Source of the DNA: Sanghuangporus weigelae
Lineage: Eukaryota > Basidiomycota > Agaricomycetes > Hymenochaetales > Hymenochaetaceae
DNA: 64,000 nucleotides
Direction of reading: 5' to 3'
Assembly (NCBI GenBank): GCA_033182465.1
Contig: CP137323.1
Coordinates: forward strand, 1,488,001-1,552,000
The notes below the pieces were generated by a model, which was given only the letters and a program-made list of their open reading frames with translations, did no database searches and was not told where the DNA came from. The stretch's first letter is position 1. Every line of letters starts with the position of its first letter. Shown piece by piece: positions 4,288 through 47,883 of the stretch. The position numbers were made by a program, and so were the translations under genes.

Positions 4288-7200
4288 TCATGACCTAGAG
4301 TCAGGCTGAATAGGATTAAAACACTCCATCCACCGTTGCCCGAGAGCAGCACCCGTGAAGTCAAGCCTAGTGGGAAAATCGCAACTAAATATGGCCGTAT
4401 TTCGAGCTCGCCAAAGCGTGTTGCGGAGGTCCGGAGGGATCCACAGCAGTAAGTCGCTTCGGTCTGATCCACCGATTATCCATCCGTCACTGTCCAGAAA
4501 CCAGTCTGACCGGTCACCACTACTAGATGAAGACGAGGATTTGTACTCGATGTCGCTTGCTTCTCCCCATAAGGGAGGGAGAACATCCGATAAGTCCCAC
4601 ATCCTGATCGTATTATCTACACAACCCGAGACGAGTCGCTGACCATCAGGGGACAAAGCAAGACACCAGACGGGGTTCGTGTGGCCGTCGAATTCAACAA
4701 CAGTGAGTCCGCTTTTCACGTTCCAGACTCGTATCGTGTGGTCCGTAGAGCCTGAAATGACATATGTTCCATCGCGTGAGAAAAGAACGGACCTAACATA
4801 TCCTTTGTGTCCTTGCAATGGACCAGCGACCTTTCGACCGCTCTCTGCTTCCCAGACGATGATGGTAGCGTCTTCCGAGCCAGAAGCAATCTGTGAACTG
4901 TCCGGCGAGAAGCAGATGGATAAGACGGAATCGGAGTGCCCAATGAAAGGGACGGGCATCGCCTCCCAAGTTTCCGTGTCCCAAAATTTTATTTTCCCGT
5001 CTTGTGAGCCCGATGCAAGCCACTTACCATTGGGCGAGAAAACGACCTCGTTTATCCAAGACTGACAGTACGATGGCCTAGCGATAAGCTCCTCGCCCAC
5101 CGTATTCCACGCCCCGGCCGTGCCATCTTCAGTAATATAGGCGACGTTCGCACCATCCGGTGATACAGAGATACGTACGACAACATCCGAGTGTCCTTTA
5201 AAAGAAACAGGGACAGATTCTCCCGTCTGAGGATCCCAAGTCCTTATCGTCCCGACCGCTGAACACGACAGGAGCTGTGAACCGTCTGATGTGAAGACCA
5301 CGCAATTGACCGAGCCCATGTGGCCGAAAAGAGGCCCAAGTCTGACGTCCCCAGTCTGAGCGTCCCAGACTATGATGGATCCGTCGCGAGAAGCAGACGC
5401 GACGCCACTTCCATCTGGCGAAAACGAAACGGAACAGAACCTTAGCGACGACCTTGAGTTAGCAGTCACGGCTGTAGCATCCCAGAGTCTGACGGTGTTG
5501 TCCAGCGAGCCCGAAGCGATGTACTTTCCACACGGTGAAAACGTGACTGACATGATGGTATTTGAGTGACCCTCTAAAGAGCCAACAGCACTTCCACTTT
5601 TGGCATCCCAGACGAACACCGACTTGTCCAAAGACAAAGAACCAGAGACGATCCGGGTCCCACAAGGAGAATACGCACGCCACTGACATCACGAGGGTCG
5701 TGTGTCCTTCCAAAGTAGAAACGACCCTTCCGCTTTCCATATCCCAGATTTTGATCGTTGCATCGAAAGAGCCGGATACGAGATGCTTGCCGTTAGGAGA
5801 GAATGCAACGGATACGACCCTCTCGGAGTGACCCTCAAAGGGCTCGAATGCGAGATTTCCGCTCTTCGTATCCCATATTCTAATCGTTTTGTCCAAGGAA
5901 CCCGAGGCAAGCCGCAGACTGTCAGGAGAAAAGGCAACAGAATCAATGCTGCCTGTGTGTCCGGTTAGTACACTATGTATAGCTCCGTTTGTGGCGTCCC
6001 GTATTATGATCGTATTATCCCAGGAACCCGAAGCGATCCTCGTTCCGTCAGGTGACCAGACAACTGAGACAATAGCCTTGGAATGCCCCTCCAGCGGACC
6101 AAAAACTGGCTGCCCATTACTAGCATCCCAGACTCGGAGCGTCCAATCAACGGATGCCCGAAAGAATACGAGTCCCGTCGGGTGAAAAGCATACAGACAT
6201 AACGCTCCCGCTGTGCCCACTCAGTGGCTCTAGAACCTCAAGCCCGCTTTCGATATCCCATACTCTGATAGTTTCGTCACTAGACGCTGAGGCGACATGG
6301 CTTCCATTCGGGGAGAAGGCGACAGAATTCACCAAACCACGATGCCTGTCCAAAATCTTTAAACATACTTGGGGTCTTTTGACACCTCTTCTCTCTACCC
6401 GTACCGCAGAGGCCGTGAATTTCAAGTAGTGAGCTGCAACTTGCGAGTATCCAGCCAGAAGAGGAATCGCAGAGACATAAATATGTGGTGCGCTTTGCGT
6501 GATAGGCAAAGTGAATATGGTCGCGAGCTTGCTCGCGTCCTGAAGGAAGGATGCGACGTCTGCGTCATGCGGCTGGAAAAAGTCAGTGACCCGTGCATGT
6601 GAATATAACACCAATGATAACTTACCTTAGACCACGAGGCAGCATCGGAAAGTGCGCGGCTAGCAACGCGACCAAACGTTTTGAGCAAACTCAGAACCTC
6701 GAACCAGAATAAAAGACGACGATGCGCAAAGTCCGAAAGCTTGTCACCAAGTTCAGGGGAAAATGGAATATGGAGAAGATGCCGAATCCAATGAAGGCAA
6801 GCATACTCCAGGTGCGGCGGTATACGAGCTTTCACTCGCTCCTCGAGTCCTAGGACGTCATCGTTGCATACGAAGGACGATTCAAGATCGCATAGATTGA
6901 ATCTTAGCATCTCCTTCATGACAGTGAAGCATCGATCAATGACAAGACGGTTGGCATCGTCAGAATCGATAAACCAAGGCTTGCTCGACTGTTCGGGTGA
7001 CGTAAGATGGTCCGAAAAGGATGCATGAAGCAGACTAATGGGCCCTCCCGGCGAAAAAGTGACGAAACTGCGAAGCTTGGATAAAATAAGAAGTGAAGGC
7101 TCTAGCGAAGAGAAGCCTAGAATACCGTCGACTATCTTGCTCGACAATGTAACTTTGCTGAGTAGGAGCAGAGCGAATACTTTCACGAATCGATCTTTCG

Positions 7201-9467
7201 ACCCTGCCTCGTCCCAACTGATGCCTGAGCTTTCGAGCACCGTTGCGTACAGTTCTTTCAAGCCGAACCCAGATAGTGCTCGCGAATCTTTCACCAGGCG
7301 ATCGAGACGATCGAAGGGATTGTCACTATTCTTCACCATCTTCACGGCTGTGGAGGCCCAGATAAACAAGCCGCCTGCAGCCATGCCAAGCAACTCCATG
7401 TTCTCGTTCCAACACCAATCCTCTGGTATCTCCACTTGTTCCTCGACGACCTGACGCATTTCCGTACGAAGATACAAGAAAACATCGTTTCGACTGACTT
7501 CCGATGTGTAATCCAAGCCCGCCGCACATACCGTTTCTGATTGTGAAGAAAGAGCCCTGTTGATGTCCGCTTCTTGCCGGCTCGTGATGAGAAACCGAAA
7601 GCAGACAGGTAATTTTGGGAATTCTGTCCGTAAAATCTCAACCAGACCATCTCGGGTGTCTAGCGTCCCGCATTCGTCCAGAGCATCGAGGACGATGACG
7701 ACGGGTTCCGATATCGAGTTCGCGGTGGCCGTAAGTGGCTGCAATAGCAGTTTGCGAAACTGGTGTAGTGGCGACGCAGTCGCTATGTCCTTGTCGATTT
7801 CGATCTCGGAGAGTATGCTCGTTCCAATTGAAGAATCGAACAGCGCCAATTTATAGGCTATCGTCCTGATGACAGACGATGGTTCGCTCTTGCCTCTTTC
7901 AGAGAACAAGAACGCGCCGAGCCTGGACATTTCTCGGAAGTGGTTTGCAATCGTCGTGCTGACGGTACTCTTCCCGGAGCCAGCCACACCGTATAGCCAG
8001 AAGATGTTCTGTTTCGTATTCGAAAACATCCAATCGATTATTTGAGCTCGTATTTCCGTCCGAGTGCCAGGAAGACATTCAGAACGGAGAAACCCGTCCA
8101 TTGAAGTCGGATTCAATCGCTGGAGTAATGCTAGCAAATTTTATGAGTCAGTCATAGTTCTTGAACGAGTATAACACGTACAAATGTCATCAATTCTCTG
8201 TGATGTACGCATTGAAACGAAGGCAGTATGGAGTGCCACTCCCGAATCGATCTTCTGCTTGAAGCTTGCCAGAGCTCGTTCAAACTCGTCAACCTTCTGT
8301 CCGCTGCTACTGTCAAGCACCCGTACTGAAGAGCGTCAAACACGCATTAAGCGAAACACTACAACGGAAAGACTCACTGAGGAAGCTACGACGCACATAC
8401 TGACGCACAAAAAGGCAGCACTCGATAGTTTGCTTTAGGAGGCCGTTGATCGGTTCATGGAGATTGGCAGACTTTTCTCGGAGCGTCTGCACATCACTGG
8501 CAAAGGCGAAGGCATCAACCATCATTTAAACAAGGTTGATGACCTTCTGGTCAGTTTTAAAAGCCTTATCAATTCCCTGATAGGCGTCATGCGGTCAGTG
8601 ACTATACACTCTCGTGGAATAGGAAACCTACCGCATGTAGAGCTGAGAGTAACCTCCAAGCTATGGTAAGAAACGGATGGATCTTTGTAAATCAGCAACA
8701 AGTTTGTCCTGAATGGCCGCTGCCTTACTCACCTCGGACACGACATCAATGACGTCTTTGAATATGGTCAACCTTGATAGCAGGTCGCCGACGGCTTTTT
8801 AAAGGTCGCTCTGTCCACTTGCGACTTGCGTGATGTCAGAAGTTCCCATCAAACGCTGAATTTTGCTCCGCCGAACGTTCTCTGCTGCAGAGCTGACGCT
8901 ATTCTGTGCAGCAGCCATTGCATCATTGACCTCAAGGTGTAAGACAACCAGAGACGATGACGGCGCCGTCTCGTCATGGTAGGCCGAAGAAAGGACAAAG
9001 ACAACTGGAAATCCGATCAATGTGGGAAAAAGATAGTGAGGCAACGTTAGCGTTGCGGTACCTTCGCCGTTGATACTTTTGGCCAACAGATCGGCAACTT
9101 TTATGTCAACGGCACCGACACAAGAGTCGGATAAGAGCGTCGACTTGTGCTTTACTTGCACTTTAAAAGTCGCAGACTCGTCCGAGAACGCACTACACAG
9201 CCCATGTCAGTTGTAAACATGTTGTCGAACATATCGCATACTCACAAAACAAGGGCGTCATTCCATATAGGAGACGCACATTTCTTGATCGTCCTTGTCC
9301 TTTCTATAGAAGAACCAAACTTCACTTCTACGTAAAGATTCGGCTCTCTTCCGCGCAAAGAAGACTTCCAGTGGACACCCTCAACCCGTATCACTAAATT
9401 TCAAGTTAAACTGGGTCAACCTCCACGAAGGAAGTGGCATACCTTGCAGACAATAGTGAGAGGTCAT
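4288..9467 (-). pseudogene. NLR-A: C2-helical-NACHT-WD40 STAND receptor, disrupted
   Basis: A full-length member of the receptor family. Exon 1 (9443-9467) is 25 nt and encodes MTSHYCLQ. Exon 2 starts the C2-like domain (PNLYVEVKFG, SPIWND). A helical domain follows (about 9000-8170), then NACHT with Walker A GVAGSGKST (about 7990) and Walker B VVIVLDALDECG (about 7690). Fourteen WD repeats follow, then the family C-terminal cap (LLLWIPPDLRNTLW) and a stop at 4288. Compared with NLR-E and NLR-F there are three lesions. An in-frame TAA near 8802 replaces the Tyr codon of NLR-F. A one-base frameshift lies near 6156 in blade 2, and an apparent 4-nt insertion near 5678 lies in blade 6. They do not look like introns. 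The gene is therefore probably a pseudogene, or needs resequencing. If whole it would encode about 1,600 residues sensing a ligand through the WD propellers. Confidence 0.82.
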
Positions 9468-9514
9468 GAGGGTGGGAAGGGAAGAATGCTTCGTGTCGTC
9501 AACCCATCGCCCCG

Positions 9515-9521
9515 TTAAATA
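9515..9521 (-). promoter_or_regulatory. Candidate TATA box of NLR-A
   Basis: On the minus strand this reads TATTTAA, 48 nt before the NLR-A start codon. The other receptors have TATA-like words at nearly the same distance, which supports both this element and the tiny first exon. It is a sequence match only. Confidence 0.4.
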
Positions 9522-11806: not shown

Positions 11807-12195
11807 GGTGCTGACTTAACTCAGTATGGACTGGAGCTGAATGTCGTGGTCTACACGTTGTCTTCATATTCACATTCGGCACATCCGTCCCATGTTCTCT
11901 ATCCTTCCCGGCCCCTTCTGTGCTATCATTCCATTCTTATTATATTCTTACCTTCAGCTCTGGTTCTGATGGCTTCAAGCACCTCGTTTACTTACTGCGT
12001 CCGAGAATAGAGATATCAGTATTATTTTGATCTCTTGCCGTGTTCGAATCTACCGAAGCAGTTACCTAAGGAGAACTTGAACAGCCATTTTCCCTCAAAG
12101 GACTCCACGCTGCGTATATCTGGATCCCCATGCATTTGCTCATCGCAACATGCTCTTCAGCCGTGCGCCATGGCATTGAATTCGCGATCGAATTT
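11807..12195. other. Intergenic region with no gene seen
   Basis: Upstream flank of the clathrin light chain gene and left flank of the NLR-B relic. CT-rich stretches around 11890-11960 could belong to the light-chain promoter. No coding sequence supported by homology was seen. Confidence 0.5.
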
Positions 12196-13218
12196 GGCAA
12201 CATCGACAAGACACAAAGGCGGCATCTCGTCTATAGCGCTTTCTCCAGACGAAAGTCGCATTTCATCTGCTTCTGAGGACGGCTCAATCATAATTTAGGA
12301 CGTTCAGAACGGAACTCTCGTTGTCGGGCCACTCCTCGGTCATTCGGGATATATCTCCACTTTATATAGCCTTCTAGTCGGACAAGACCGTAACTATATG
12401 GATCTGGGAGTCTCGAAGTGGCAAAATGCATTTTGAGTCTTTAAAAGGGCACTCGAATATCGTTTCTTGTATCGACTTATCGCCAAACGGTATGACAGTT
12501 GTCTCTGGTTCCCTGGACAGAACAATCAGAGGCTGGCGAGCTGGTCGCAGGACCACTGCACGGCCATTCGAAAGGGGTTAAGACGGTATCTTTGGGTCGC
12601 ACTAACCTGGGAAACGATTATCGATTTGTCTGGACATACTCATCAGGTATTCAGCGCTTGCTTCTCACCAGACAGTGCGCTTAATGTTTCTGGATCGCGG
12701 GACAACTCCATCGTCATCTGGGATGTAAAAACCGGCTGTATCGTTGGTGCCCTTTCAAAGGACACGCTGTGCCCGTGGGGAATTTCACTTTCTCTGTCGA
12801 CGGCAAGTATGTCATCTCAGGCTCTTTGGGCCACAAGCTCCGAATCTGGGATGCGAAAAGCGGACTGACAGTTAGCGTTCTCGAAGGCCACGCACACAGT
12901 GTCTGGTGGCTCGCCCTGTCCGTGGATGGTTCACGAGTTTGTTCAGGTTCGCGGGATAAGACGATCAGATTGTGGGATATCAGTGACCTTCTCACGGAAC
13001 AATGTCGCAACATAGCCTCTCTATCCAGTGATGGGAGCTGGAAGGACTGGATCTTAAAAGATGATGGATGGATCGTGGATAGAAATGATCGAAGCAATTT
13101 GCTCCTGTGGATCCCTCCTGACCTTCGCCGGACGCTTTACCGTTACAGGAATGTAGCAGTCTTGAGTTGCGAGTTTTATACGATGCTTGACTTTACAGGC
13201 AGCTGCTCTTTTTGGTGA
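12196..13218 (+). pseudogene. NLR-B: relic of the second WD40 propeller and C-terminal cap of an NLR
   Basis: Broken WD repeats are found in changing frames on the plus strand. The first, ISSIALSPDESRISSASEDG, corresponds to blade 8 of NLR-E/F and ends in TAG where the Trp codon of the blade is expected (12296-12298). Blades 9-11 are shortened and frame-shifted (LSPNGMTVVSGSLDRTIR near 12480-12535). Blades 13 and 14 and the cap are well preserved in one frame from about 12769: DGKYVISGSLGHKLRIWD, then DKTIRLWDISD, DGWIVDRN and LLLWIPPDLRRTLYR. The C2, helical, NACHT and first-propeller parts are missing. The copy lies on the opposite strand to NLR-A and is separated from it by the clathrin gene. 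At least one nonsense change, several frameshifts and deletions make it a dead fragment. Confidence 0.85.
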
Positions 13219-20000: not shown

Positions 20001-21834
20001 TTTTTAAACTCGAGCCTTCGTTTTCTCGTCGTCAGAAACTTGTATTGACTCGCGCACTGTCGGAATCCGGACTCTTTCAACCTGGCAGCCTCGACCCCAC
20101 CCGTCAGCTCAGGCGTTCTCTCCATTCGTGAGACCTTGTCGAGCTTATTCAACCTCTGGCGACTATCTTACTGTCTCCGCGTAGACGTATGTCCGCTTTG
20201 TTCTTATCATCAAGTTCTCGACGCGAAACCTTGCTCTTTTACCTGGCTTGTGTTCTCGTGGTCTTGTGTTCCGGCCACTTGCTTTGGTTGAATGTGCACA
20301 CACGGATACTCTGGACCCAAAAGGTCAGAGCGCCTGAAGTTGGTGGATGACCCTCGATCTTCGGCACTATTCCATTCGGAATCTAATAGACTTATCTATG
20401 GAAATTGGATTATGCTCGTCGAGGTTGATTCGGTTAAAATCCAGGAAGTCATCCGATCTGCTACTGGGCTATTGAAGCCTGCAAAATAGCATGGATAAGG
20501 AGGGATTCGCCTTAATCGTTCTCTCATTTCATTATTCGGCTGCGTTCGAGGCGGGATTCTTCGACTTCCATGACAATGGTCCTGGAAAGATATTCGAGAG
20601 TCAGCCTCATATTCGAACCTTTACCCACCGGGATCACTTATTACGGACTCTGCGGATATGTCTGCTCTCTTCGCTCTCGCTCTAACTGCGCTTTAGGAGC
20701 CAAACGACATCATTTCCCGTATCATCAAGCGCTGCCTGACTCCCTTCTCCGATTGACAAGGGTGTACAATGTCAACCCCAAAATGTGTCATCGTGGTTGT
20801 ACTCGCCGCTCGACCGCGTCAAGCAAAGCCAAGTGATCTATTTGCCAGAGACCTTATTCCATTCAAGGCTCCCAAATCTTTTTATGCATATCACAACATC
20901 AAGTTGTGCTGCATCCGCAATATCGTAACATGCGTGACTCCACCGTCGTCCTTACCGCATCCGTAATACACCACACTGCCGTAGACTAGATCACTTCAGA
21001 AGGAAGACAAACGAGTATGCTTATGACGTCTGGACATGACCTTTTTAGTTTCCTCGATGTCCGAATGTGGATTGATGCTCATCTTCAATTCAAGTCGTGG
21101 TACGCGCGTGCTTTATTGGTCTCGTGAACACTTGTCTGGCGTGCGTACTGGTGACCATTGTATGTTGCGAGCTTCGTCTTATTCTTATCCTGTGCGGGCC
21201 TTCCGCCCTATCTGCCTTCTGATTGTGTTTATCGAAGGAAGCGAAGGGAGAGAAAGAAGGAACGTCCAAGAATGACGTAGTTGAGTGCTTTTTATTCTCA
21301 AATACTGAAGACAGGTTTACGTTTAGAATTTCTTTCGCCTCGCCTCGGTTTATGGCAAATTACTGTATGGAGCGTTATTCTGAGAATTCACCTTCTACAA
21401 GCTCACGAATCTGGGAAAGTCCTTGGAATCAGCCGCGTCATCGTCTTTGGAAATGTTGGATTCAATTTGTGCGACTGCGATATGGTGGGTGCCGAACTTG
21501 AAAGCGGCGATAAGCAATGATGGGATCATGATGGTGGTCTTGTGATGTGAACTCACCCCGTGTTCGTCTCGGGCTTGAGTTGGTTTCCCAGAGACTGAGA
21601 GCGCTGTTCATTACCGAGGCTGACCGTGAAACCTCCGTTCCGTAAAAAAAGTGGCCTTTTTCATTCAAATGAGGATGGTGGCATGAACCACTGAATAAAC
21701 CAACCACTAAGACGTCTCTTCCTCGATTCTGTAGTTTTTGATTTCTAGTGATGCGTGTCACTGTTACATGTAAAAGCGCAAGACCGTCTTGACATTTACG
21801 TGGAAACACATGCCTTATAGAAGGGGTTAACATA
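17028..21834. other. Gene-poor stretch of 4.8 kb
   Basis: Between the Ser/His-rich gene and the receptor scrap I see only short, compositionally ordinary open frames and no recognisable protein, tRNA or rRNA. The first part is the 3' flank of the upstream gene. A T/G-rich low-complexity run lies at about 17769-17801. The longest open frame (18446-18835, plus) has no family features. The stretch could hold a non-coding transcript, a decayed gene or a large regulatory region. RNA data would be needed to say which. Confidence 0.5.
17769..17801. repeat. TTTTG-type low-complexity run
   Basis: A T-rich run with interspersed G, built from TTTTG-like units. It lies about 740 nt downstream of the stop of the Ser/His-rich gene. 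No function is implied. Confidence 0.6.
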
Positions 21835-22070
21835 CCCTGATTCCGTCAGGGGACCAGGCAACTAAGACAACAGCCTCGATATGCTCCTTCAGCGGACCAA
21901 GAATCATGTTCCCATTGTGAACAATAGAAAAGAGTTTTAAATTTAAGGAGCTTTCCGAGGCTCCGACAGTGCTGATCAAAGAGGTTGATGCTGGTATGAT
22001 AGGCACACTTATCAAGCTTGAGCAAGGAAACATGAATCGATTGGTCTTTACAATAATGAGTCTCTGCATA
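21835..22070 (-). pseudogene. Scrap of an NLR WD40 repeat
   Basis: On the minus strand, about 28 residues (ILGPLKEHIEAVVLVAWSPD, about 21850-21925) match the linker and first strands of a WD repeat of NLR-A (GPLEGHSKAIVSVVWSPD, blade 3). The match stops on both sides and the surrounding frame is not recognisable. It is a short relic adjacent to the downstream end of the membrane-protein gene. Confidence 0.6.
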
Positions 22071-22194: not shown

Positions 22195-23941
22195 CTAGAA
22201 CTTCTCCGAAATCAACATCTTCACGTCATTCTCGGCATCGTCGACCTTCTTGATGGTAATACCTGTCCCAGCTTCAACCTCTAGCTCTTCCTTACCGGCC
22301 CAATCCTCTTTGTAGTTCCACACCCTCTTCAATTCTTCTCGGCCCTTCGTGGCTGCACGCAAGATGACAGCCAGACATGTAATAGACGGGACGAAATACA
22401 ACGCATAGAGACCCGTCAATTCAGCGTCAGTCTCTATGTACCCCTTGACCTTAAAATAAGCGATGAGGATATAGACAGGAATCCAAGAGAGGACGGCTGT
22501 ATGGAAGTATGGTTTCGGCCAGCGGTTACGGCGACGGAACCAGGAGCACCTATTTCCAGATGTAGCGGAGTCTGGGAGAGAAATGCCTGCTGACTGCGAC
22601 CGAGGGCATAAGGAAATAAAGGAAATATGCGTCCCGAACAATTTTGTCTTTAGAGTGCCGTCCGCAGCACGAACAAATAAGACAGTGTCCGGTTTTCCGA
22701 CAAGCCTCTCCTCCGGACGCGCAAAGGTGTGGTCCATCCGGTAAAAGAACGCGACATAGCTGAACAGGGAGCTTGAGAGCATGGTACTCCATATCAACCC
22801 CGACCAGCTTGTTTCGCCTTCATGTGGCCTCAGCTGTAGCATGCGGATCGGAAGAGATTGCTCTGAGATCCAGAACCAGACGGACAGTGCCGACATGACA
22901 AGCTTCATGGCAATGAATACCAGTCCTCGTCAAATTACAAAGCTGAACGAACTCACCAAAACAATGCTGCCGAAGATGTAAATTTTGAGCGATACTTTTG
23001 CAGCAAATGTATCGAAGATCATGAAATGGATCATCGATGCAAAGAGAATCATCGAGCAGATGGAGCTCTGATATATCAGTGCCCCGCTAGCCAGCGAGAT
23101 TGAAGCAAGAGCAAAAATTGTCTTTATGAGAGCCGGGTATCGAGTCATTAATCGACCGGTCATTCCTACGACTATGAAGGGCACTATTCAATAATTCATA
23201 GATCGTGAGTCCCAATAAATGAAAGGGGGGGAATTGATTAGACTTACTGCCTTTAGAATTTCTGAGGATCATTCTATGTTTGAATTCTGAAACCACGAAC
23301 AAGGCCTGTAGGTGATGATGATCAACGCGCGTTTCTTATTTGGTAGTCACAAAGATCGGAAGAACTTACCCTCGAAATAAAAAAAACAGCAGGCAAAAAA
23401 AGTGCAACAGGATAATATGCATTTACCCAGTCAATCCGCCCGAATACTGAGTTTTGATACCATCTGTAAAAGAGGGTATCTGCCTTGGTAGCAGAGGCGT
23501 CGTCGCCGTTCATAATATCGACAATCTCCTCGCCATTCTGCGGACGTTTGTACCACCCTCGGATGGTGATGCATTGGTCAACAATGACAACAGACGCAAG
23601 CACAAGGGCAATGACAAATTTAAAGAGCCATTGCTTTAGAAATATCTTCTTTACAACACTCTGCTGAACACGAATTTCAGCGATCTGCGATTCGGAGAGG
23701 TTGGCCAGGGACTCGGTATCATCTTTGGAAGGCTCCTTCTCCAGATGCGGGAGCTGGCGTACAGCATGCCACGCCTGCGCCCATGCCATCAAATTGATTA
23801 ACTTGGGTGGACTTTGCCGCAGAGGTGAGTGCATACCTTTAAATGAGCACGACACTCGATCGCATAGACAAGGAGCGTGGGGAGCACAACATGCGCGTAA
23901 CTCTTGAGTTCAGTGAGGACCTGCTTGACGACTAGGTCCAT
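22195..23941 (-). CDS. Multi-span membrane protein, family not recognised
   Basis: The minus-strand exons starting at ATG 23941 read MDLVVKQVLTELKSYAHVVL, then LINLMAWAQAWHAVRQLPHL after a very short intron. A charged segment with an amphipathic look follows (EKEPSKDDTESLANLSESQI). Hydrophobic stretches are FKFVIALVLASVVIVDQCI, YYPVALFLPAVFFISR, IFALASISLASGALIY, IYIFGSIVLVS, LFSYVAFFYR, AVLSWIPVYILIAYF and LTGLYALYFVPSITCLAVIL. It ends in a charged cytosolic-looking tail, with stop at 22195. The gene therefore encodes a polytopic membrane protein of about 450-500 residues with five to seven spans. It lies between an NLR scrap and the truncated NLR-D, in the same orientation, so it either separates two ancestral receptor loci or moved into the cluster. 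I do not know the function. Several intron borders (one only about 35 nt) are uncertain. Confidence 0.62.
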
Positions 23942-24115
23942 GCTCAATGACTGGGGATGATGGTGGTTGAAGAACAAGATGGATTCATAGTCTGGGTTGA
24001 TCTCACGGAAGGATATGGGCGCTGTTATGTCTAATCACGCAGTCACTACGGTGCATGTAGTCGGTAATTAGCATAGCTTTCAACGGGTGTGCCGACATGA
24101 GCCGGACTCTGATGT

Positions 24116-24661
24116 AGAGATTCGGAATTTTGCTGTATTTGACGGTCCCACTTGGTCTAGGCGTAACACTGGAGTTGATATGAGTCAGCAATTCTGTAAG
24201 TTAATACATAGGAGGTGGAGGGTGGACCTGTGAGACAATTAAGAGATGGACATGGTAGCCTGGCGGAAAGCAGTGTCTCAGGCCCGCATGAAAGTATATA
24301 TGATACTAGATATCCCATGAACGAGAAGCACGCTGCCAGTGATAGAGACAGATGCCGGTGCGAAACGAGAGAGAGATAAGGGATATGAGGAGATTTGAGC
24401 TACTGAACCAAGCTGACAACATGATCCGAATACAGTACCAGAGCACAATTATGTAAGTGTTTCCCACACCATCTATCACACACTCTTTCCGAAAAAACGT
24501 CGTGTAGGACATTGTTACCGACTGTATTTGTGCTTGGTGAGAGAAGATTGTTCACGTCTTTGCAAGTATTTTCTATCATTTCATTGTATTCATCTTTTCT
24601 GCCCTTCCAGAATTTGTATTTATTGAATGATGACGAGACACTCAGAACATGACGGAAGGAC
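24116..24661 (-). repeat. Left copy of the direct repeat flanking NLR-D, with dead receptor exon 1
   Basis: This segment matches 26793-27489 in the same orientation, less about 150 nt. It holds the beginning of a C2-like exon 2 (YSKIPNLYIRV), intron 1, exon 1, the TATA-containing promoter (AGTATATATGATACTAG near 24293-24309) and upstream sequence. Exon 1 starts at 24253, but a one-base insertion turns it into ATG TCC ATC TCT TAA, so it cannot start a receptor. The rest of that receptor is gone. The inner end (about 24661) is also where NACHT homology of NLR-D stops, so the tail of NLR-D reads into this repeat. Confidence 0.8.
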
Positions 24662-27536: not shown

Positions 27537-30500
27537 CTAGCCTTCTGACCGGATGTTGAAGCATTCTGTCCATCGGTCCCCGAGGGCTGCGCCAGAAAAA
27601 TCAAGTTTGGTGCTAAATTCGCAGCTGAATATAGCTGTATTTCGAGGACTCCAGAGCGTCAGTCGAAGATCGGGGGGAATCCATAGGAGCAAGTGCCGTT
27701 CGGTGTCGCGTATCCACCCATCGTTGCCCAAGACCCATTCTGACCACGCGCTGCTTTCGGTTGAGAATTCGACCCCCGAAGGACGTAGAGCTTCTGCTAC
27801 ATTCCACGCTCTGATCGTTCTGTCCTCGGAACCTGAAAAGAGTCGGTGACCATCGAGACTGAAGGCAAGAGACCTGACCCCGTTCGTATGCCCTTCGAAC
27901 TTGTAGATGCACTTTCCGCTTATTATGTCCCAGATTCGTATCGTATTGTCCTTAGAACCTGAAGCGACATAGGTACCGTCGTGCGAGAAGATGACAGAAT
28001 AGACGCCTGCCTTATGGCCTCGGAATGGCCCGGCAACGACTGAACTGCTCTCTGCATCCCATATTATAACGGTTGTGTCCCATGAGCCAGATGCCATCTG
28101 TTTCCCATCGGGGGAAAAGCAAACGGAGCAGATGTCCTTTTTGTGCTTAATCAATGGCTCACGGATCGGTTCCCAAGTCTTCGTGCTCCAAATTCTGATC
28201 GTTGCATCGTCTGAACCGGACACCAGCTGTTTCAAATCTGGAGAGAAACTTAGCGAGCTGATTTCCTTACTATGAGCGCGCAGAGGACCCGCAACAAGCT
28301 CGCCCGTTGCAAAACTCCAAATTTTGATACTTTTATCCCAGGAGCCGGAAGCGATCATTTTACCGTCTGGAGACAAGGCAATGCAATAGATAACATCAGC
28401 ATGTCCTTCCAGAGGATTCATGATCATTTCTCTAGTGTCGATATTCCATATCCTGATCGTTCCATCGCTTGATCCAGATATCAGATGCGATCCATCTGAC
28501 GAAAAAAGTACACAGTGAACCCCATTCGTGTGCCCATGGAAAGGTCCAGCAACGACGTCCCCACTCTCAGAGCTCCAAACTATAAGGGAATTGTCGGAAG
28601 ATGCAGACGCGATACGACTACCATCGACTGACAAGGCTATAGATTTAACGGATCGGATGTGTCGCGTCAGAGTAGCTGAAGTACTTGTCACGGCTGTAGC
28701 GTCCCAGATCCTGACAGTCCCGCTAATGCATCCCGAAGCAACGGTATTACCGCTTGGCGAAAACGATATGGAAGTTATGTGGCCTGTATGACCCTCCAAT
28801 GGCCCAGCAATGACCTCTCCGCTTCTCGCGTCCCAGACAACCACCGTCTTATCCCAGGATCCACCAGAGACAATTCTGGTCCCGCAAGCAGAATAATGCA
28901 CAGACGTTACATCTCCTGCATGCTTTTCGAAAGTAGAAATGACCTTTCCACTTTCTACCTCCAAGATTCTTATTGATCCTTTATCAGATCCATAGGCAAG
29001 GTGTTTACCGTCCGGCGCGAAAGCGACTGAGTGGATGCAGCGACAATGATCCATGCGAATCTCGGAAATTAGCTTACCGCTCCAGGCATCCCATATAATG
29101 ACAGTACCATCTGAAGATCCTGAAGCAAGTTGCGCACCATCAGGAGAGAATGCCACAGAAAGAATGGCTCGTGTATGCCATTTTAAGGGACCTAGCATGA
29201 CTTTCCCGTTCTGAGAATCCCAAGTAATAATCGATTTGTCTTTGGATCCCGACGCAATTCTCGTTCCGTCATTCGAGAGCGTAACGGTGTGCACGCGATC
29301 AGTATGGCCCGAGAGAGGACCAACAACCAAATCGCCAGTTCGAACGTCCCAAATCCTGAGATTGCGATCGCGGCATCCAATCACAACGCGGGAGACATCA
29401 GGCCAAAAAGCAGCGGATTCGATGTGGTGTGGTTTGCAGGACAATGTAGAAACTTCTTCCCCACTGCTTACATCCCGAATTCTAACGATTCCTGCATCGG
29501 TGGCCGAGGCTAAATACTGTCCATTTGACGAGAAGGCAACAGACTCGATATCTCTTTCAGATGTCTCGAATATCTTCAGGCACGCAGTGGATTTCTTCAA
29601 TCCTTTCCGTTGTGCTCGCACAACGGAAGACATGCGTTTTGCGTAGTGGGCCGCAACGACCGAGTCAATATCCGAGAGGGGAATCATAGAAACGTAGATG
29701 TGAGCTGTGCACTGCGCCACAGGCAAGGCAAATACAGTCGCGAGTTTGCTGGCGTCCCGTAAGAACAATGCAATCTCTGTGTTGTGCAACTGCCAGTTAA
29801 TCAGCCACCTTTTCTGCGTGATGCTATTGCACTGGAAACCTACCTCAGACCATTGACTTGCATTGGAAAGAGCGTGAGGCGCAACGCGACCGAATGCTTT
29901 CACCAAGCTAAGTACTTCGAACCAGAATAAAAGGCGATGGTAGGCGAAGTCTGAGAGCTTGACAAGCAGATCTGGAGCATATGGCACATCTTGAAGATGC
30001 TGCGCCCAATAAAGGCACGCGTACTCCAGGTGTGGTAGAACACAAGTTTTGACGTGATCATCAAATGCGGGAGTGACATCGTTGTAAAGGAAAGATGTCT
30101 TGAGGTCGCTTATATTGAAGCGCAGCATGTTCTCCATAGCAATGAAACATCGGTCAACTATGAGTCGCTTTGCTTCAGAGATATCGATGAACCATGATTC
30201 TCCAGAGAGTTCTGATGACATGAGATAATCTGAAAACGACGCGTGGAATAAACGGACAGGTCCTCCCGGAGTGTAGGTGATGAGACTTCGGAGCCTCGAT
30301 AAAAGAATGAGTGAGGTTTCTTGGTGCGGAAAGCCTAGAATTCCATCGATGGCGTCGCTTGAGAGTGGTACCTTGCTAAACAGTAGAAGCGCCATGACCT
30401 TAACGAAACGTTCTCTCGAGGTTTTGTTTTGCCACCTAATTCCTGAGCTACGAAGCACCGTGGAATACAACTCGTTCAATCCAAAGTCGGAGGGCAACCT

Positions 30501-32706
30501 TGAATCCGATACTAGGCAATCGAGATCATAGAATGGATTGTCACTGTTCCTGACTATCTTCACGGCGGTGGATGCCCAAATAAATAGTCCACCTGCAGCA
30601 TTTTCAAGTAAAGACATATTCTCGTCCCATGGCCAGTCTTCAGGAATGTCCACTGTCTTTTTTATGACATCGAACATTTCGGTACGAAGATATGACAGAA
30701 CGTCCCGACGACTGTCCGGTGAGGAATAGTCGAGGTCCATCGGAATTACGTTTCCCGGATTCGACGAGAATATCCGATCGATATCCGGTTCCTGGCGGCT
30801 CGTTATGAGAAATCGGAAGTTGCTCGGTAGCTCTTTGGCCGCTCTTTGAAGGAGCTCCAAGAGAGTTCGTCGTTTATCGGGCGTTCCGCATTCATCCAGT
30901 GCGTCTAGCACGATGACAATCGGTCCGACCGTCGAGTCTGCAGCGGCAAGGAGTGGTTCTAGGATCAGCTTCTCGAATTGCTGTTTCGGCGGACCGCTCG
31001 CAGCACTGTCATTGTTGGTGTCAAGCTCCGAAAGGATGCCTTTTCTGATAGCGGGATCGAATACCGATAGCTGGTAGGCAAGTGTCCTGATCACGGATGA
31101 TGGCTCCGTTTTACCTCGTTCAAAGAAGAGGAAAGCACCGAGGCGACACATATCGCGGAAATGATTTGCGATAGTAGTACTGATGGTACTTTTTCCCGAT
31201 CCGGCGACACCGTGCAGCCAGAAGATATTCTGCCTCGACTTGGAGAAGACCCAATCGATTATCTTCCTCCTCACTTCCATGCGAGTTCCTGGAAGGCACT
31301 CTGGACGGTCCAAACAATCCGACAGGCTGGGATCGAGCTGTTGTCGCAAGTCTGGTAGTATGCGTGAGAATACAATCTCCTGGTAAACATAAACGAGGAA
31401 CACGAACAAAGTTTGTCGCCCCGTTCCGCTGCCCGTACTGAAGCAAAGGCCGTGCAAATAATAAGTCCAGAGTCAATTTGCTGCTTAAGATTGGCTAGCG
31501 TCCGTTCAAACTTGTCTATCCTGTCAGAGCTGTCGATATCAAACATTCGCCCTGAAAATAATTAAAGAATGGAAGAAGATAGATTTGGTTCGTACTCACC
31601 AATAAAACCATGATCAGTGTATTGGCGAACGAAAAGACAACATTCAATCGTCTGTTTGATAAGTCTATCAATCGGCTGCTGAAGGCTGGCAACTTTGTCT
31701 TTAAGTGTCTGGGCTTCGCAGACAAAGGAGAAAGCATCGCCTAGATTACAGACTAGAGCAATAACTTTACGGTCAGTCTCGAAAACGTTCTCGACCGCCT
31801 GGTATCAATCACAATAAGCCTCTAGCAAAATTCTGATGAGAAAGACGCGCCTTGTACAACGCAGAAGCTAATGACCATGCCACAGTGAGGTACGGATGTA
31901 TCTGGACGGCGTCAGAATCAGATCTTGCTCTGGTCAACCTTAACTCACTTCCGATAAATCATCAACGGCCCTTCGAAATACGTCCAGCCTTGATATGAGT
32001 TCCTCAATGGCTCTGTACAGGCCGTCGGAACTGCTCGACCTATCGGATATAGATTTATTTAAGTCAGAGATATCTATCGAATTCATGATTCCGCATCGCT
32101 GGATAGACTCCGCAGCCGTTTCAATGCTGATATCGGCTGCTTTCAAGGGATTGATGGATGAAAGGTGCAGCACAATGAAGCCAGCAGTGCTCGAAGGTGG
32201 CTTGAGTGACGACAAGAGTACGAAAGAAGCTGGAATAAAAGGGTGTTAATTCACTCAATAAAATTTTGGGATGAATGCTCGTTACTTACCTTCACCATTA
32301 GTACATTTCTCCAGCAAATCCACGAGCCTAATTTCGAGGATGCCGACGCAAGGGTCAGAAGACAGAGTCGAGGCGTGTTTAATCCGGATCTCGAAGATTG
32401 CAGAGTCATTTGATGAGTAGCTGTATATATTTCATCAGTTGTCTGCGGGCGTAGGAAATCTTTACCACTAACAATACGAGGCGTTTGTTCCACACAGGAT
32501 CCCTCTTCCTCTTGATCGTCTGACTTCTTTGTATAGCATCACCGAGCTTCACTTCTGCGTAAAGATCGGGTACTTTTCTATGGAAAGTATGCTTCCATTG
32601 AAGACGTTCAAGTCGTATCACTAGAAAAGGTCTACCCATCAGCTTCCTCATAACGAAATACTTCGTGACACTAACCTCGTAGACAATATTCAGTGGACTC
32701 GGGCAT
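27537..32706 (-). CDS. NLR-E: C2-helical-NACHT-WD40 STAND receptor, near intact
   Basis: Exon 1 (32676-32706) is 31 nt (MPESTEYCLR). The C2-like domain follows (KVPDLYAEVKLGD, RDPVWNKRLVL, SDPCVGILEIRLVDLLEKC). A helical domain comes next (KVASLQQPIDRLIKQTIECC, then MFDIDSSDRIDKFERTLANL). The NACHT module has Walker A GVAGSGKST (about 31200), Walker B IVIVLDALDECG (about 30910) and NFRFLITSRQEPDID. The large last exon gives 14 WD repeats (two seven-bladed propellers) and the cap DGWIRDTERHLLLWIPPDLR, with stop at 27537. A 54-nt intron near 29793-29846 is a multiple of three and open, so it could be retained harmlessly. All other junctions keep the frame, except that one donor after TTGTACAAG (about 31845) reads GC rather than GT. 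Such proteins bind a ligand through the repeats, oligomerise through NACHT and signal through the N-terminus. The ligand is unknown. Confidence 0.85.
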
Positions 32707-34329: not shown

Positions 34330-34383
34330 CTTCACCTTTATATGGAATCCAGAAACACAACGCAACGCACAACTTTGGGTGGG

Positions 34384-37691: not shown

Positions 37692-37989
37692 ATCATGCGG
37701 CGATCACTCTTTCAATATAGCTACATTCTTTCTTGATATTATTATACTTATCACCAAGAAAGTAGAGGGTATAAAATACGTATGATTGCGCGAGTGTGGG
37801 AAATGTGGTATACCAACGGGAAACGGAGAATGTAACCGGTAAGAAAAAACGTCACTATCAGAAGGGAGCCGTAACTGTCATGAAAAATATCAAGAAATGC
37901 AAGACACTGTTCTACCAAGAAATATGACTCAAAGAACTGACTGAAAATCATGAGTGACGTTCATTAAAACCCGACTATAAACCCCAGAA

Positions 37990-42632: not shown

Positions 42633-42638
42633 TATATA
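42633..42638 (+). promoter_or_regulatory. Candidate TATA box of NLR-F
   Basis: TATATA within GCATATATAGC lies 55 nt before the start codon of NLR-F, close to the position of TATA-like words before the other receptors. This predicts a very short 5' leader. Confidence 0.55.
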
Positions 42639-42692
42639 GCGAGTCGATGTGCTGATGACAAAACGCTGTCCTCTCCTCGCCTTTCATTCCCC

Positions 42693-45600
42693 ATGTCCAT
42701 CCACTATCGTCTCCGAGGTTCGTCCCTTCAAGCACTGTGCTACCGAGGCAAAACTGATCCATTGTCCGCCTTTAGTTCTTCGACTCGAGGAGCTCAAGTG
42801 GAACCGGCGGTTGCATAGCAAGACGCCCAATCTTTACGTTCAAGCGAAGCATGGTGATAATGTGAGAACTACGCGAACGGTTAAGAAAAGTTTATCTCCG
42901 GTCTGGGATGAGGAGCTCGTATTGTAACTACATGCTCTAATTCAGAAGACCATCGTCTGAAGCAGGATACATAGTTTTCCTGTTGCTGATGTGGATAATT
43001 TTGAGATCCAAGTCAAGCATGATTCATTGTATCTACCTGACCCTTGTGTCGGTGTCGTCGATATCAAGCTTACCGATTTGTTGACGAAGAGTACCAACGG
43101 AGAAGGTAAGGATGCACCAGTGGTACCTCGATATTAGTCTTCTTTGCTCACTGCAATCGTATTTCTTAGCTCCCTTCCGCCTTTCCTCATCCGACGGTAC
43201 TTCAACCACAATGAGTCGTGGAGTCATCATCTTGCACCTTGAGGCTTCAGATACAATGTCCGTCGCGGATGCGAACATCAAGGGTGTATCGGAAGACGTT
43301 CGGTTCAGGAAAGTTCAGCGCTTGGAGGGTGCTTTTGATGTCACACAATCAAGTAATGGTGCAATGACGTGTCTAATAATCCAGAGCGATCTGTACATGT
43401 CCGTCGAGCATCTACTATCAAAGCTGGAAGTCTTCAAGAGGGTCATTGATACTCTATCCGAAGTCAGTTCACTAACGTTCCATTGAAATGAATCTCGTTT
43501 CTGAAGAATCCAGTTCCATCCGTTCCTAACCTTAGCTTGGAATTTAACCTCGGCTCTGTACAAGGTGAGACTTCGTTTTAGTGTCATAAAGTGATTACAA
43601 TTGACGTCTTCCAGGCCGTCAAGAATGTTTTTGATACTGACCAAAGAATCGTCAATCTTGTTCAAATGATGGGAGATGCCTTTGCCTTTGTTCGGGATGT
43701 GCAGACACTACGAGACAAGGCTAAAAGTCTTCAAGAACCCATCAATGGTCTTCTTAAGCAGACTATCGAGTGCTGCCTTTTCGTGAGCTATTATGTCCGT
43801 CGAAGCTTTTTCCGTGCGTACTTCATTTGATACATCTACTTGCCAAATGATTGAATCTCTCCAGGCCGAATGCTTGACCTGAGCAGCAGCCAGAAGATAG
43901 ACGAGTTTGAGCAAGTGCTTGCAAGCTTCAAGCAGCAAATCGATTCCGGGGTGGCTCTCCACACGGCATTTGTTTCAATGCGTACATCTCAGGGAATTAA
44001 CGACATTTGTATGTACCAAACACATTGCAATGGTCCATTTGACTCATCAATCTTTCAGTGTTGTACCAGCGCCTGCATCCGAGTCCGATGGACGGATTTC
44101 ATCGACGTGACTGCCTTGCTGGTACGCGTGTTGAAATAAGGAGTCAGATAATTGACTGGATATTCTCGGAGACGAAGCAGAACATCTTTTGGCTGTACGG
44201 CGTAGCTGGTTCTGGGAAGAGCACCGTCAGCACAACGATCTCAAACCACTTTCGGGAAATGTCCAGACTAGGCGCATTTTTGTTCTTTGAGAGAGGCAAG
44301 AGCGAGCCACCATCGGTCATAAGGACGATAGCCTACAAACTGGCGCTGTTCGATTCCTCGATCGGATCGGGCATCCTCTCCGAAATTGAAAATGATAAAG
44401 ACATAGCGACAGCGTCTCCACTGCACCAGTTCAACAAGCTTCTTCTGCAGCCGCTCCTGGCCCTTGAGAGTCTTCCAATGGCACCTGTCGTTATTGTTCT
44501 CGATGCTCTGGACGAATGCGGGACACCCGAGACCCGACGCGGTTTGATGGAACTTTTCCGAAAAGAGTTCCCGAAATTGCCCAATACATTTCGGTTCCTC
44601 ATCACGAGCAGACAGGAAGCAGACATTGACAGAGCACTTGGCTTGCAGCCTGAAAAGGTACGCGTGATGGAATTCGTCTGCACGACCGCAGCAAGCCAAA
44701 GAGATGTTCTCTCCTACCTGCGCTCCGAAATGCGTAGTATTGTCCAAGAACAAGTGATAATCCCGGAGGAGTGGTCATGGGACGAGAACATGGTGTTGCT
44801 TGGGAAGGCTGCGAACGGATTGTTTGTTTGGGCTGCCACGGCAGTGAAAATGGTCAAGAATGGCATCTTTAAGCTCGGTCGACTCGAGCGCCTTGTCTCC
44901 GACTCGAAGTCACTCTCTGGCTTTGGGTTAGATGAGCTATATTCATCGATACTTCGCAATTCAGACATTGAGTGGAATGATGAAGAAGCCAGAGAGGCTT
45001 TTGTGAAGACTTTGGCATTGCTGCTCCTATGCAAGGTTCCACTATCGAGCAAAGACGTAGACAGTCTTCTGGACTTCCCTCCTCATCGGTCCTCCGTCGT
45101 GATTTTGTCGACTCTACGAAGTGTCCTAACGTATAGCCCCGGAGGTCCCGTCAATCTACTTCACGCTTCTTTCTCGGACTATCTCATGTCTCCTGAACGT
45201 TCAAAGGATCCATGGTTCATCGACATTTCTGCGGCGAAGATTTTCATCGTAACGCGATGCTTTGAGGTCATTGCAAAAATGTTGTGTTTCAATATGTGCG
45301 CTCTGCAGACCTCCTTAGTCCACAATGATGATGTTCCAGACCTTTCGGATCGCATCAAGTCTCGAATACCATCGCACCTACAATATGCATGCCTCCATTG
45401 GGCCCGGCATCTCATTGATGTTCCGTATTCACCCCAGCTAGTTGAGATGCTTTCGAACTTCGCATATCATCATCTTCTATTCTGGTTCGAGGTGCTCAGT
45501 TTGATCGGAGCGTTCGGTAGTGTTGCGACTCGCGCACTTCCCGATGCCTCACTGTGGGTCGAGGTAGGCCTAACGCAATGTTCATGAGCATATTTTGACT

Positions 45601-47883
45601 ATTTCCTAGCCTCGCGATGCAACGCTCGCATCATTTCTTCGGGATGCCAACAAGCTTGCGACGTTATTTGCCGCGCCTGTCATGCAAAGCTCACCACATA
45701 TCTATGTCTCCATGGTTCCTCTCTCTGAGGGTGATTCCAAGGTTGCTGAACACTACTCCAAACATTTGTCAAACATGGTGCGAGTAGAGCGAAGAGGAAT
45801 GAAGACATTACCGTCATGTCTCAAGGTTCTAGAGGGGCACGAGTATGTAGTAAGCACCGTCGCCTTCTCTCCGAACGGAAGGCTTATCGCATCGGCATCT
45901 TACGATGGAGCTGTCACGTTGTGGAACGTAGATGACGGGGAAGGGATTGTCATACCGCCCAGTGGGAACACATTATCTTTTTCACCTGACGGAAACCGTA
46001 TCGTTTTGGGCTCTCGGGACCGCATGATCAGAGTTTGGGATATCCAGAATGAGAAGCTTATTCTCGATCCTCTGGAGTGGCATACTGCGGACGTTTGGTC
46101 GGTTTCTTGGTCTCCTGACGGGTCGAGAATCGGTTCGGGGTCTAAGGATATGATGGTCATCATCTGGGATGCCGCAGGTGGCAAACCTCTATTCAGTCCT
46201 TTGACTGGGCATACAGGCCAGGTCACTTCTGTTACCTTTTCTCCTGACAGTTTGCATCTTGCCTCGGGTGCTTTCGATAATACGATCAGAATTTGGGATG
46301 TGAAGCGCGGGAAACTTGCATTCAAACCATTCGAGGGTCATTCCGATGCCGTACAATCCGTCTCATTCTCTCCGAACGGCGAGCACCTGGTCTCTGGCTC
46401 TTGCGATCAGACGATCAAGGTCTGGGAGGTAGCAAGTGGAAATATTATCTCCACTTTCAGAGGGCATATGTCAGATGTGCTATCTGTAGCGTTTTCTCCT
46501 TGTGGAACCCGCATCGTTTCTGGTTCCTGGGACAAGACGCTGATTGTGTGGAATTCTGATAGTGGGACTATTTTCTCTGGACCGTTAACGGGTCACGAGA
46601 GTCATGTTAACTCTGTAGCATTTTCCCCGGATGGGAAGTACATCGTCTCAGGTTCCAAAGACAAGACCGTCAGAGTTTGGGATGCTATTGCCGCGGCGAG
46701 TAACTCGATAACACCTGCAAGGCATACGAGAGCCGTTACGTCTGTCGCGTACTCGCCAGATGGAAGTAGTATTGCTTCTGCTTCGCAAGACCAGTCGATC
46801 ATACTTTGGGACGCTCAGAGCGGAAACGTCGTTCTCGGCCCTCTTCTGGGGCATACAGACGCGATCACCTGCGTGGCCTTCTCTGTAGATGGGTCGCGAC
46901 TTGTCTCGGGTTCAGAAGATAAAACGATCAGGGTTTGGAATCGTGGATCTGGCGAAATAGTCTCTGTTTCTCTGGAAGGACACACGGATATCGTTACTTG
47001 CATTGACGTATCGCCGGATAATGTGACCATTGTCTCGGGTTCCTCAGACGGGACAATCAGAGTATGGAACATGGTGACTGGCACGCTTGTCGCCGGACCG
47101 GTTCACGTTCACTCCGACTGGGTGCGTTCGATAGTTTTCTCGCCCAATGGCAAGCAACTCGCGTCAGGCTCAGACGACAAAACAGTCAGAATTTGGGATA
47201 CTGATACTTGGGATGCAATATTCGAACCTTGGGTTGCGCACTCCTGGTACGTCTCCTCCGTCTGCTTCTCGCCAGATGGTTCGTGGATCGCATCTGGCTC
47301 CTGGGATACGACTGTTATTATATGGAACTCGAGTAGCGGTCGTAGGATTGTTAGTCCTTTGCGAGGACACTCGTCCCCCGTCCAATGCGTCATTTTCTCG
47401 CCCAATGGAAGACATGTCATATCGGGCTCTTGGGACAGTACCGTTCGAGTATGGGATGTGGAAAGCGGGCAAAGCATTTGCGAACTCGTGGGCCATACGA
47501 ACGGCGTCACTTCTCTCGCCTTGTTCCCTGATTGGTCGCGAATAGTCTCAGGATCTGAAGATACTACAATCAGAATCTGGGATATATCGGACCTTTTTGA
47601 CTTGTCGAGAGAAGATGCAGAATATGTCGCGCCTGAACCGTCGTCCCCTAGCAATAGATACTTCTCGGAATGGGTCCTCCAGAAAGACGGTTGGGTTATA
47701 GGCGGGTCAGAACGACGCGACTTTCTCATGTGGATCCCTCCGGACCTTCGCTCGACGCTTTGGAGGCCTCGCAATACGGCGATCCTAAGCTGCGATTTTG
47801 TGACAGAGCTTGACTTTACAGGTACAGCACTCGGGGAACGCTGGACGGAATGCTTGGCTTCCTCTGTGGAGAGTAGATCGTAG
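42693..47883 (+). CDS. NLR-F: C2-helical-NACHT-WD40 STAND receptor, apparently intact
   Basis: The best copy of the family, about 1,590 residues. Exon 1 (42693-42717, 25 nt) gives MSIHYRLR. Exon 2 (42776-42923) and exon 3 (42975-43105) encode the C2-like domain: TPNLYVQAKHGDN, SPVWDEELV and PDPCVGVVDIKLTDLLTK. The next exons give a helical domain with ALYKAVKNVFDTDQRIVNLV, INGLLKQTIECC and MLDLSSSQKIDEFEQVLASF. The NACHT exon has Walker A GVAGSGKST (about 44203), Walker B VVIVLDALDECG (about 44490) and FRFLITSRQEADID. After a 45-nt intron, one exon encodes 14 WD repeats, which I count as two seven-bladed propellers. The cap (DGWVIGGSERRD, LMWIPPDLRSTLW, LGERWTEC) ends at 47883. All junctions I examined keep the frame. 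Inferred role: cytosolic sensor that oligomerises on ligand binding and triggers a response through its N-terminal domains, possibly at membranes. The Asp of the C2 DPYV loop is Asn here. Confidence 0.9.

Follow-up and report, generated by a model that had tools for sequence, protein, structure and literature searches.

Two surveys of fungal NLRs describe the systems closest to the receptors considered here. In the parts of the first that bear on them, C2 is listed among the N-termini (table 1), C2 alone constitutes an N-terminal effector class, and WD40 is the prevailing repeat of basidiomycete NLRs (Dyrka et al., 2014, PMC4986451); in the pertinent passages of the second, which mention an HHblits-based procedure, a “large number” of agaricomycete N-termini carry a C2 plus Goodbye-like double domain, Goodbye-like domains resemble MLKL and HeLo-like bundles in structure, and experiments on them are said to be still needed (Wojciechowski et al., 2022, PMC9815663). 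What is said below of C2 at membranes and of killing by HeLo/MLKL-type bundles is likewise drawn from these parts of the two surveys. The first also states, in the sections used here, that repeats in the Podospora NACHT-WD family are ~85% identical and that Goodbye domains are very rarely joined to highly conserved repeats (Dyrka et al., 2014, PMC4986451).

How does the Sanghuangporus weigelae locus compare? In the window, a stretch of 64,000 nucleotides, tblastn and blastn recover seven loci or relics of one family between 4288 and 47883:

42693–47883, plus strand: NLR-F, intact, nine exons, 1589 aa, C2-helical-NACHT-WD40
27537–32706, minus strand: NLR-E, nine exons, 1581 aa, C2-helical-NACHT-WD40, intact given a GC donor at intron 5
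4288–9467, minus strand: NLR-A, full length and broken (two in-frame stops, two frame breaks)
24658–26940, minus strand: NLR-D, truncated within NACHT, C2 and helical parts kept
24110–24660, minus strand: two-piece copy (E 3′ flank plus D-like 5′ end, exons 1–2), from blastn identities
12095–13206, plus strand: NLR-B, a relic reduced to WD40 and interrupted by stops and frame changes (tblastn E 1.7e-45)
21833–21922, minus strand: WD40 scrap of 90 bp (tblastn E 1.2e-4; 84% identity over 63 bp to NLR-A)

All seven stand above chance: when whole NLR-E and NLR-F proteins were used as tblastn queries, the best control match had E 0.078 across 20 two-base-block shuffles of the window, 0.54 in the reversed window and 2.9 once the loci were masked, a rough comparison because the query lengths differ from those of the locus search. 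The weakest locus, the 90-bp scrap, also matches NLR-A by blastn (E 3.9e-12). The count agrees with a preliminary description of this DNA, which had placed at least seven dispersed loci or relics on both strands among household genes; a NAD kinase (13.6 kb), a histone deacetylase (35 kb) and a VBS/GIT1_C protein (38 kb) do lie among or near them, and an ABC transporter lies at 2 kb (one scan gave matches for three of nine neighbouring ORFs, another for six, one of these below its cut-off).

The two intact genes have one domain order: C2 comes first, followed by a helical region of amphipathic character, a NACHT bearing both Walker motifs (A and B), and 14 WD40 repeats. They also have a common nine-exon structure with agreeing exon lengths; all eight introns of NLR-F are GT-AG and its reading frame is open, and NLR-E reads through only with the GC donor at intron 5. 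The parts of NLR-F are as follows:

42693–42717, 42776–42923, 42975–43105, 43170–43462, 43514–43564, 43615–43813, 43865–44008, 44059–45563 and 45610–47883, plus strand: exons 1 to 9
42693–43255, plus strand: C2 domain, residues ~1–130, exons 1–3 and the start of exon 4 (end approximate)
43256–44102, plus strand: helical domain, residues ~131–345, exons 4–7 and the very start of exon 8 (approximate borders)
44059–45563, plus strand: NACHT exon (exon 8), Walker A GVAGSGKS, Walker B VIVLDALDE
45610–47883, plus strand: WD40 exon (exon 9), 14 repeats and a tail common to NLR-E

The front end is the firmest part of the assignment. PF00168 exceeds its curated cut-off of 22 bits in all four N-termini scanned, with 55.2 bits in NLR-A (E 9.2e-15), 35.7 in NLR-D (1.1e-8), 39.1 in NLR-E (9.5e-10) and 49.6 in NLR-F (4.9e-13, for a 129-aa piece), bearing out the C2-like domain of the preliminary description, and the NLR-F domain matches C2 domains of extended synaptotagmin-2 and NEDD4 among PDB sequences. 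Calcium-dependent C2 domains are marked by Asp-x-Asp in loop 3; in the alignment, with the loop placed by eye, all four copies have His-x-Ser at this site instead, which suggests that binding is calcium independent. The C2 domain probably binds membrane, although it could bind protein instead of lipid.

The helical domain is harder to place. Amphipathic helix periodicity exceeds that of shuffled sequences (reached by 2/500 shuffles in NLR-F and 0/500 in NLR-E) in this region and not in C2, which supports the helicity foreseen in the preliminary description; of the two matches that it proposed to look for, Pfam gives the C2 match for the N-terminus, and for the helical region no family, HeLo- or MLKL-type included, above cut-off. 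DUF7708 reaches 22.3 bits where its cut-off is 25 (E 1.3e-4 in NLR-F). RPW8 (E 0.062) and PigL_N (E 0.071), the latter presumably the former Helo_like_N profile, each match one of three members in the Pfam scan; the unrelated families Imm25 (E 0.03) and PAH_ZNF598 (E 0.059) score alike, so both matches are near noise and were set aside as evidence for the HeLo/MLKL superfamily. Goodbye and NACHT_N profiles match none of the three members in Pfam searches up to E 10, in which HMMER filters drop most matches above ~0.1. Searches of PDB sequences with the helical region, by single sequence or three-sequence profile, gave no significant match, three profile matches at E 0.28–0.4 being taken as chance; and of 73 and 66 pattern matches in prokaryote and viral collections, by a method that reaches only fairly close relatives, tblastn confirmed none.

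These results bear on what the N-terminus does. C2 might be the effector or interaction module, binding protein or scaffolding lipid at septa or vesicles, with the helical domain confined to oligomerisation or a linker role and forming no pore. The lack of a pore-forming family above threshold for the helical region, the occupation of the N-terminus by C2 and the treatment of C2 alone as an N-terminal effector class in the relevant part of the 2014 survey (PMC4986451) argue for this reading; the pairing of C2 with Goodbye-like domains, similar to MLKL and HeLo, in the cited passages of the 2022 survey (PMC9815663) argues against it, even if the helical region here is a candidate only. On balance, we regard it as somewhat unlikely.

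The preliminary description had suggested a new NLR class unless the architecture already stood in fungal NLR surveys. Since C2 is in the 2014 survey (PMC4986451) and C2 plus Goodbye-like in the 2022 survey (PMC9815663), at least in the parts consulted, the layout is not new, the suggestion is withdrawn, and the copies are new members of a known fungal NLR kind with C2 plus a helical domain. Like C2 Goodbye-like NLRs as those passages present them, they place C2 and a second domain, here helical, before the NTPase; that second domain is at most a candidate Goodbye-like one, as three members gave no Goodbye or NACHT_N match in the filtered HMMER search, while the survey passages mention an HHblits-based procedure (PMC9815663). 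With the C2 class of Dyrka et al. (PMC4986451) they share an N-terminal PF00168 in basidiomycete NLRs where WD40 prevails, but the helical domain between C2 and NACHT is not described in the part of that survey used here. HeLo, MLKL and RPW8 four-helix-bundle effectors also have an amphipathic helical region adjoining a STAND NTPase; here, however, C2 precedes that region, and neither RPW8 nor PigL_N matches it above noise. In HeLo and MLKL, as commonly understood and as far as the quoted passages go (PMC9815663), the membrane-active helix starts both the domain and the protein, in contrast to the C2-fronted order seen here; this speaks against the membrane mechanism preferred below.

The rest of the protein is that of a fungal NLR (STAND): the NTPase has a P-loop and Walker B (NPHP3_N, GVAGSGKS, VIVLDALDE), both motifs being present in NLR-E and NLR-F, and the C-terminal superstructure-forming repeats are WD40. 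The NLR-F NACHT exon matches NPHP3_N (E 5.3e-27) and, at 25.8 bits against a cut-off of 26.7, NACHT (E 1.1e-5); with NCBIfam, the NLR-F N-terminus has no match and the NACHT exons of NLR-F and NLR-E have only weak P-loop matches, a PDB sequence search with the NLR-F exon gave nothing up to E 0.01, and its structure model is poor (pLDDT 44.6). A purpose-built HMM finds 14 WD40 repeats each in NLR-E and NLR-F, and PF00400 marks 14 stretches in NLR-F. The fold model of the NLR-F WD40 exon (757 residues, mean pLDDT 72.8) is all-beta over residues 69–660; its pTM of 0.47 leaves propeller packing unfixed. Apaf-1 has a CARD N-terminus, a STAND NTPase and two WD40 propellers. It resembles these proteins in the order of NTPase and WD40, and murine Apaf-1 takes Foldseek ranks 2–3 and the apoptosome rank 4 with the WD40 model; it differs in having CARD where C2-helical stands here, with 24% identity over the propellers and a TM-score of 0.47 by query length. 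The search lacks specificity (1997 matches reach E ≤0.001, many of them to other WD40 proteins), and TM-scores by query length are 0.35–0.47 among the best 50 of the 1997.

Could these be receptors for heterokaryon incompatibility, akin to HET-E and HNWD, that diversify as their WD40 repeats shuffle? The NACHT-WD40 layout, with repeats of 42–43 residues as in HET-E, HET-D and HNWD of Podospora anserina, and the adjacent paralogs plus relics would fit. However, repeat-to-repeat identity within a gene, from 10 ungapped 43-aa segments of the 14 repeats, averages 38.4% in NLR-F and 32.8% in NLR-E (maximum 55.8% and 60.5%), far below ~85% (PMC4986451), and the WD40 exons of both genes lack a tandem DNA repeat; HNWD-type fast shuffling was rejected on these two grounds. 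A HET domain, the effector of some receptors of this type, is also absent from Pfam scans of N-terminal pieces from NLR-A, NLR-D, NLR-E and NLR-F, and the rarity of Goodbye domains beside highly conserved repeats, as stated in that section of the survey (PMC4986451), points the same way. Judged by sequence, these repeats do not belong with the highly conserved kind that shuffles in incompatibility genes; the incompatibility pattern read into the locus earlier is not favoured, and we consider such a role improbable.

The explanation to which we incline, with modest confidence, is that the family comprises NLRs (NACHT-type STAND) of the C2 plus helical kind acting at a membrane, its decayed copies left by turnover of an old paralogous family. 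WD40 propellers would keep the protein inactive and detect a ligand that is foreign or altered-self; ligand binding would trigger nucleotide exchange in NACHT and oligomerisation; clustered C2 domains would next carry the helical domains to a phospholipid membrane, with no need for calcium; and these may permeabilise it or recruit a partner, with local cell death or a defensive reaction as the outcome. A narrower version, in which the calcium-independent C2 anchors the oligomer, once activated, to a phosphoinositide membrane and a helical bundle behind C2, away from the free N-terminus, does the killing, is unlikely; if true, a single polypeptide would be both receptor and executioner at the membrane, with a geometry unlike that of HeLo, MLKL and plant RPW8-type NLRs. 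If the layout is known, what does the locus offer? The survey parts cited treat C2 NLRs by domain content (PMC4986451, PMC9815663), and two intact copies, exon structures and recently broken relatives would supply constructs to ask about C2 targeting and helical killing; in other respects the locus is an ordinary case of fungal NLR turnover.

Between NLR-F and NLR-E, pS is 0.70–0.75 and pN 0.24–0.36, for a dN/dS of ~0.06–0.23 (rough, as synonymous sites are saturated); because synonymous divergence far exceeds non-synonymous, both look maintained as proteins. C2 and WD40 domains have general scaffold functions. Together with the low dN/dS, this would suit old paralogs in housekeeping signalling, in membrane trafficking or development and not immunity; yet several decayed copies surround the two intact ones and the architecture is NLR-like, making such a role very doubtful.

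The mixture of intact and decaying copies noted earlier is real: two genes are intact and several are broken or relic. NLR-A, previously grouped with NLR-E and NLR-F as full length, does span the full length and is colinear with NLR-F (67.5% nucleotide identity over ~4.5 kb by blastn), but in-frame TAA stops at codons 170 and 226 (spliced numbering) interrupt the helical domain, within exons alignable to NLR-F and NLR-E, and the frame breaks near 6160 and 5690, in the WD40 part, with no space for an intron. Its NACHT exon (0 stops in 501 codons) and C2 exons are open; the four lesions rule it out as an intact gene, and since two are stops where NLR-F and NLR-E read through, assembly errors are the less likely cause. 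NLR-D is truncated as described, matching ending inside NACHT near 24658 (its exon 6 is provisional at the donor side). NLR-B and the scraps at 21.8 and 24.1 kb hold as relics, the last redefined as the two-piece copy. This lies directly downstream of NLR-D: 24110–24430 is 82% identical to 26789–27108, and 24437–24660 is 76% identical to 27256–27489.

The NLRs with a C2-helical-NACHT-WD40 layout in this intron-rich DNA, fungal in character and by gene structure and content probably agaricomycete, form a real family, which the preliminary description rendered mostly accurately and which is ordinary for this fungal group. Its count and layout stand: six-frame self-comparison, tblastn with the two best copies, and nucleotide self-comparison yield seven loci or relics within 4288-47883:

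42693-47883, forward strand, NLR-F, family locus
32706-27537, reverse strand, NLR-E, family locus
9467-4288, reverse strand, NLR-A, family locus
26940-24658, reverse strand, NLR-D, family locus
12095-13206, forward strand, NLR-B, family relic
24110-24660, family fragment, duplicating the 3' flank of E and the 5' end of D
21833-21922, WD40 scrap

With these seven masked, the window gave no match better than E 2.9; the best chance values were E 0.078 among 20 windows shuffled by two-base blocks and E 0.54 in the reversed window. Judged by sequence similarity, even the weakest locus, the WD40 scrap (tblastn E 1.2e-4, obtained with shorter queries, so that comparison with the controls is rough; blastn to A E 3.9e-12), exceeds chance.

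All four N-termini tested (F, E, D, and A) score above the curated cut-off for Pfam C2 (PF00168; E 4.9e-13, 9.5e-10, 1.1e-8, and 9.2e-15, respectively), and the F domain matches the PDB sequences of extended synaptotagmin-2 (E 1.4e-6) and the NEDD4 C2 domains (E 5.7e-5). Calcium-binding C2 domains are marked by Asp-x-Asp in loop 3; in an alignment of the four, this position, placed by eye, is His-x-Ser throughout, a sign that binding may not need calcium. All four also keep a basic stretch, T-[VI]-K-[KR]. Exon 8 encodes a NACHT-type NTPase with Walker A and Walker B motifs (NPHP3_N, E 5.3e-27; NACHT, 25.8 bits, slightly under the cut-off of 26.7), and its structure model is poor (pLDDT 44.6). 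An HMM seeded from 13 repeats of F and E themselves finds 14 WD40 repeats in exon 9 of each gene; for F, the Pfam tally of WD40 stretches is likewise 14. The exon 9 model (mean pLDDT 72.8, pTM 0.47) is mostly above 75 at residues 69-660 and below 50 at both ends and at 361-370. The top Foldseek match is a highly repetitive propeller; full-length murine Apaf-1 takes ranks 2 and 3, and the apoptosome ranks 4, 9, and 10. Because the 1997 matches at E <=0.001 include many other WD40 proteins, with low TM-scores, the list confirms WD40 propellers rather than any special kinship to Apaf-1.

How might such a protein work? The C2, helical, NACHT, and WD40 parts follow one another in this order, with conserved NTPase and repeat features. 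By analogy with the STAND family, the WD40 propellers would sense a ligand and restrain the protein, the NACHT would oligomerise, and the N-terminal part would be the effector; more tentatively, calcium-independent binding by the C2 domains may bring the oligomer to a membrane, which the helical domains may permeabilise or at which they may recruit a partner. HeLo and MLKL proteins have a membrane-active helix at the front, whereas here C2 takes that place: this is the specific tension in the best mechanism, and the main rival explanation makes C2 alone the effector or a scaffold. The helical part, which the preferred mechanism would set to work at the membrane, shows 100-degree hydrophobic periodicity above shuffles at residues ~131-345 (observed value reached by 2/500 shuffles in F and 0/500 in E); the C2 region has no such excess (434/500 and 458/500). 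In the three members scanned, no Pfam family matches the helical region above cut-off, and 11 do so below it. DUF7708, a domain of unknown function, scores 22.3 bits against its cut-off of 25 (E 1.3e-4) and matches two of the three, F (helical region at 43256-44102) and E. RPW8 (E 0.062) and PigL_N (E 0.071) each match one member and count for little, since unrelated families score likewise (Imm25, E 0.03; PAH_ZNF598, E 0.059; SlyX, E 0.088; Syntaxin_2, E 0.095).

The suggestion of a new NLR class gives way to an architecture already catalogued, an outcome that the preliminary description itself named as refuting novelty: a survey reports a large number of agaricomycete N-termini with a double domain, C2 plus a Goodbye-like part (Wojciechowski et al., 2022; PMC9815663). 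The loci here are further members, the Goodbye-like identity of their helical region being a candidate one. An earlier survey lists C2 among the N-termini of fungal NLRs, outside the classes that it names as frequent, the remaining domains making up <1% of annotations; it finds that WD40 prevails among basidiomycete repeats and argues for birth-and-death evolution (Dyrka et al., 2014; PMC4986451).

Manually built gene models, based on frame alignment and splice sites, give nine exons each in F (1589 aa) and E (1581 aa), with equal lengths for exons 2, 3, 5, 6, and 7 (148, 131, 51, 199, and 144 nt). Each of the eight introns of F is GT-AG; in E, an apparent GC donor replaces GT at intron 5 (31850-31799, reverse strand). 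The two proteins are most alike in NACHT (59% amino-acid identity), followed by the WD40 part (51%), the helical region (47%), and C2 (44%). Synonymous sites near saturation (pS 0.70-0.75), together with a dN/dS of 0.06-0.23 that this saturation makes rough, indicate old paralogs retained as proteins. A, described at first as full length, has that extent and the F/E exon structure but is broken: two in-frame TAA codons (170 and 226 of the spliced reading) fall in the helical region, and the homologous reading of the WD40 part shifts frame near 6160 and 5690, with no room for an intron. Its loss of function seems more recent, because its NACHT exon is open, with zero stops, and 66% identical to that of F. 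The tblastn match of D ends near 24658, within NACHT, and the sequence runs straight on into the copied E 3' flank and D 5' end (24110-24430 versus 26789-27108, 82% identity; 24437-24660 versus 27256-27489, 76%). These duplicated segments, from the 3' flank of one NLR and the 5' end of its neighbour, are most simply read as what is left of a tandem array, probably shrunk by deletion. ORFs at 22198-23909 (reverse strand), flanked by the WD40 scrap on one side and the fragment at 24.1 kb on the other, resemble a membrane protein gene; one has no match, and the other weakly matches DUF1774, below cut-off.

Highly conserved shuffling WD40 repeats of incompatibility genes are described as ~85% or more alike, in a survey noting that such repeats very seldom accompany Goodbye domains (Dyrka et al., PMC4986451). 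Mean pairwise identity is 38.4% in F and 32.8% in E (maxima 55.8% and 60.5%; ten 43-residue segments per gene out of 14 repeats, other lengths dropped and gaps disallowed); neither gene is of this type. Across the window, Tandem Repeats Finder detects a short array in A and another in D; the WD40 exons of E and F have none. Elsewhere, 54734-58094 (reverse strand) holds a tandem pair of NAD-dependent epimerase/dehydratase genes with 70.5% nucleotide identity over 1.3 kb.
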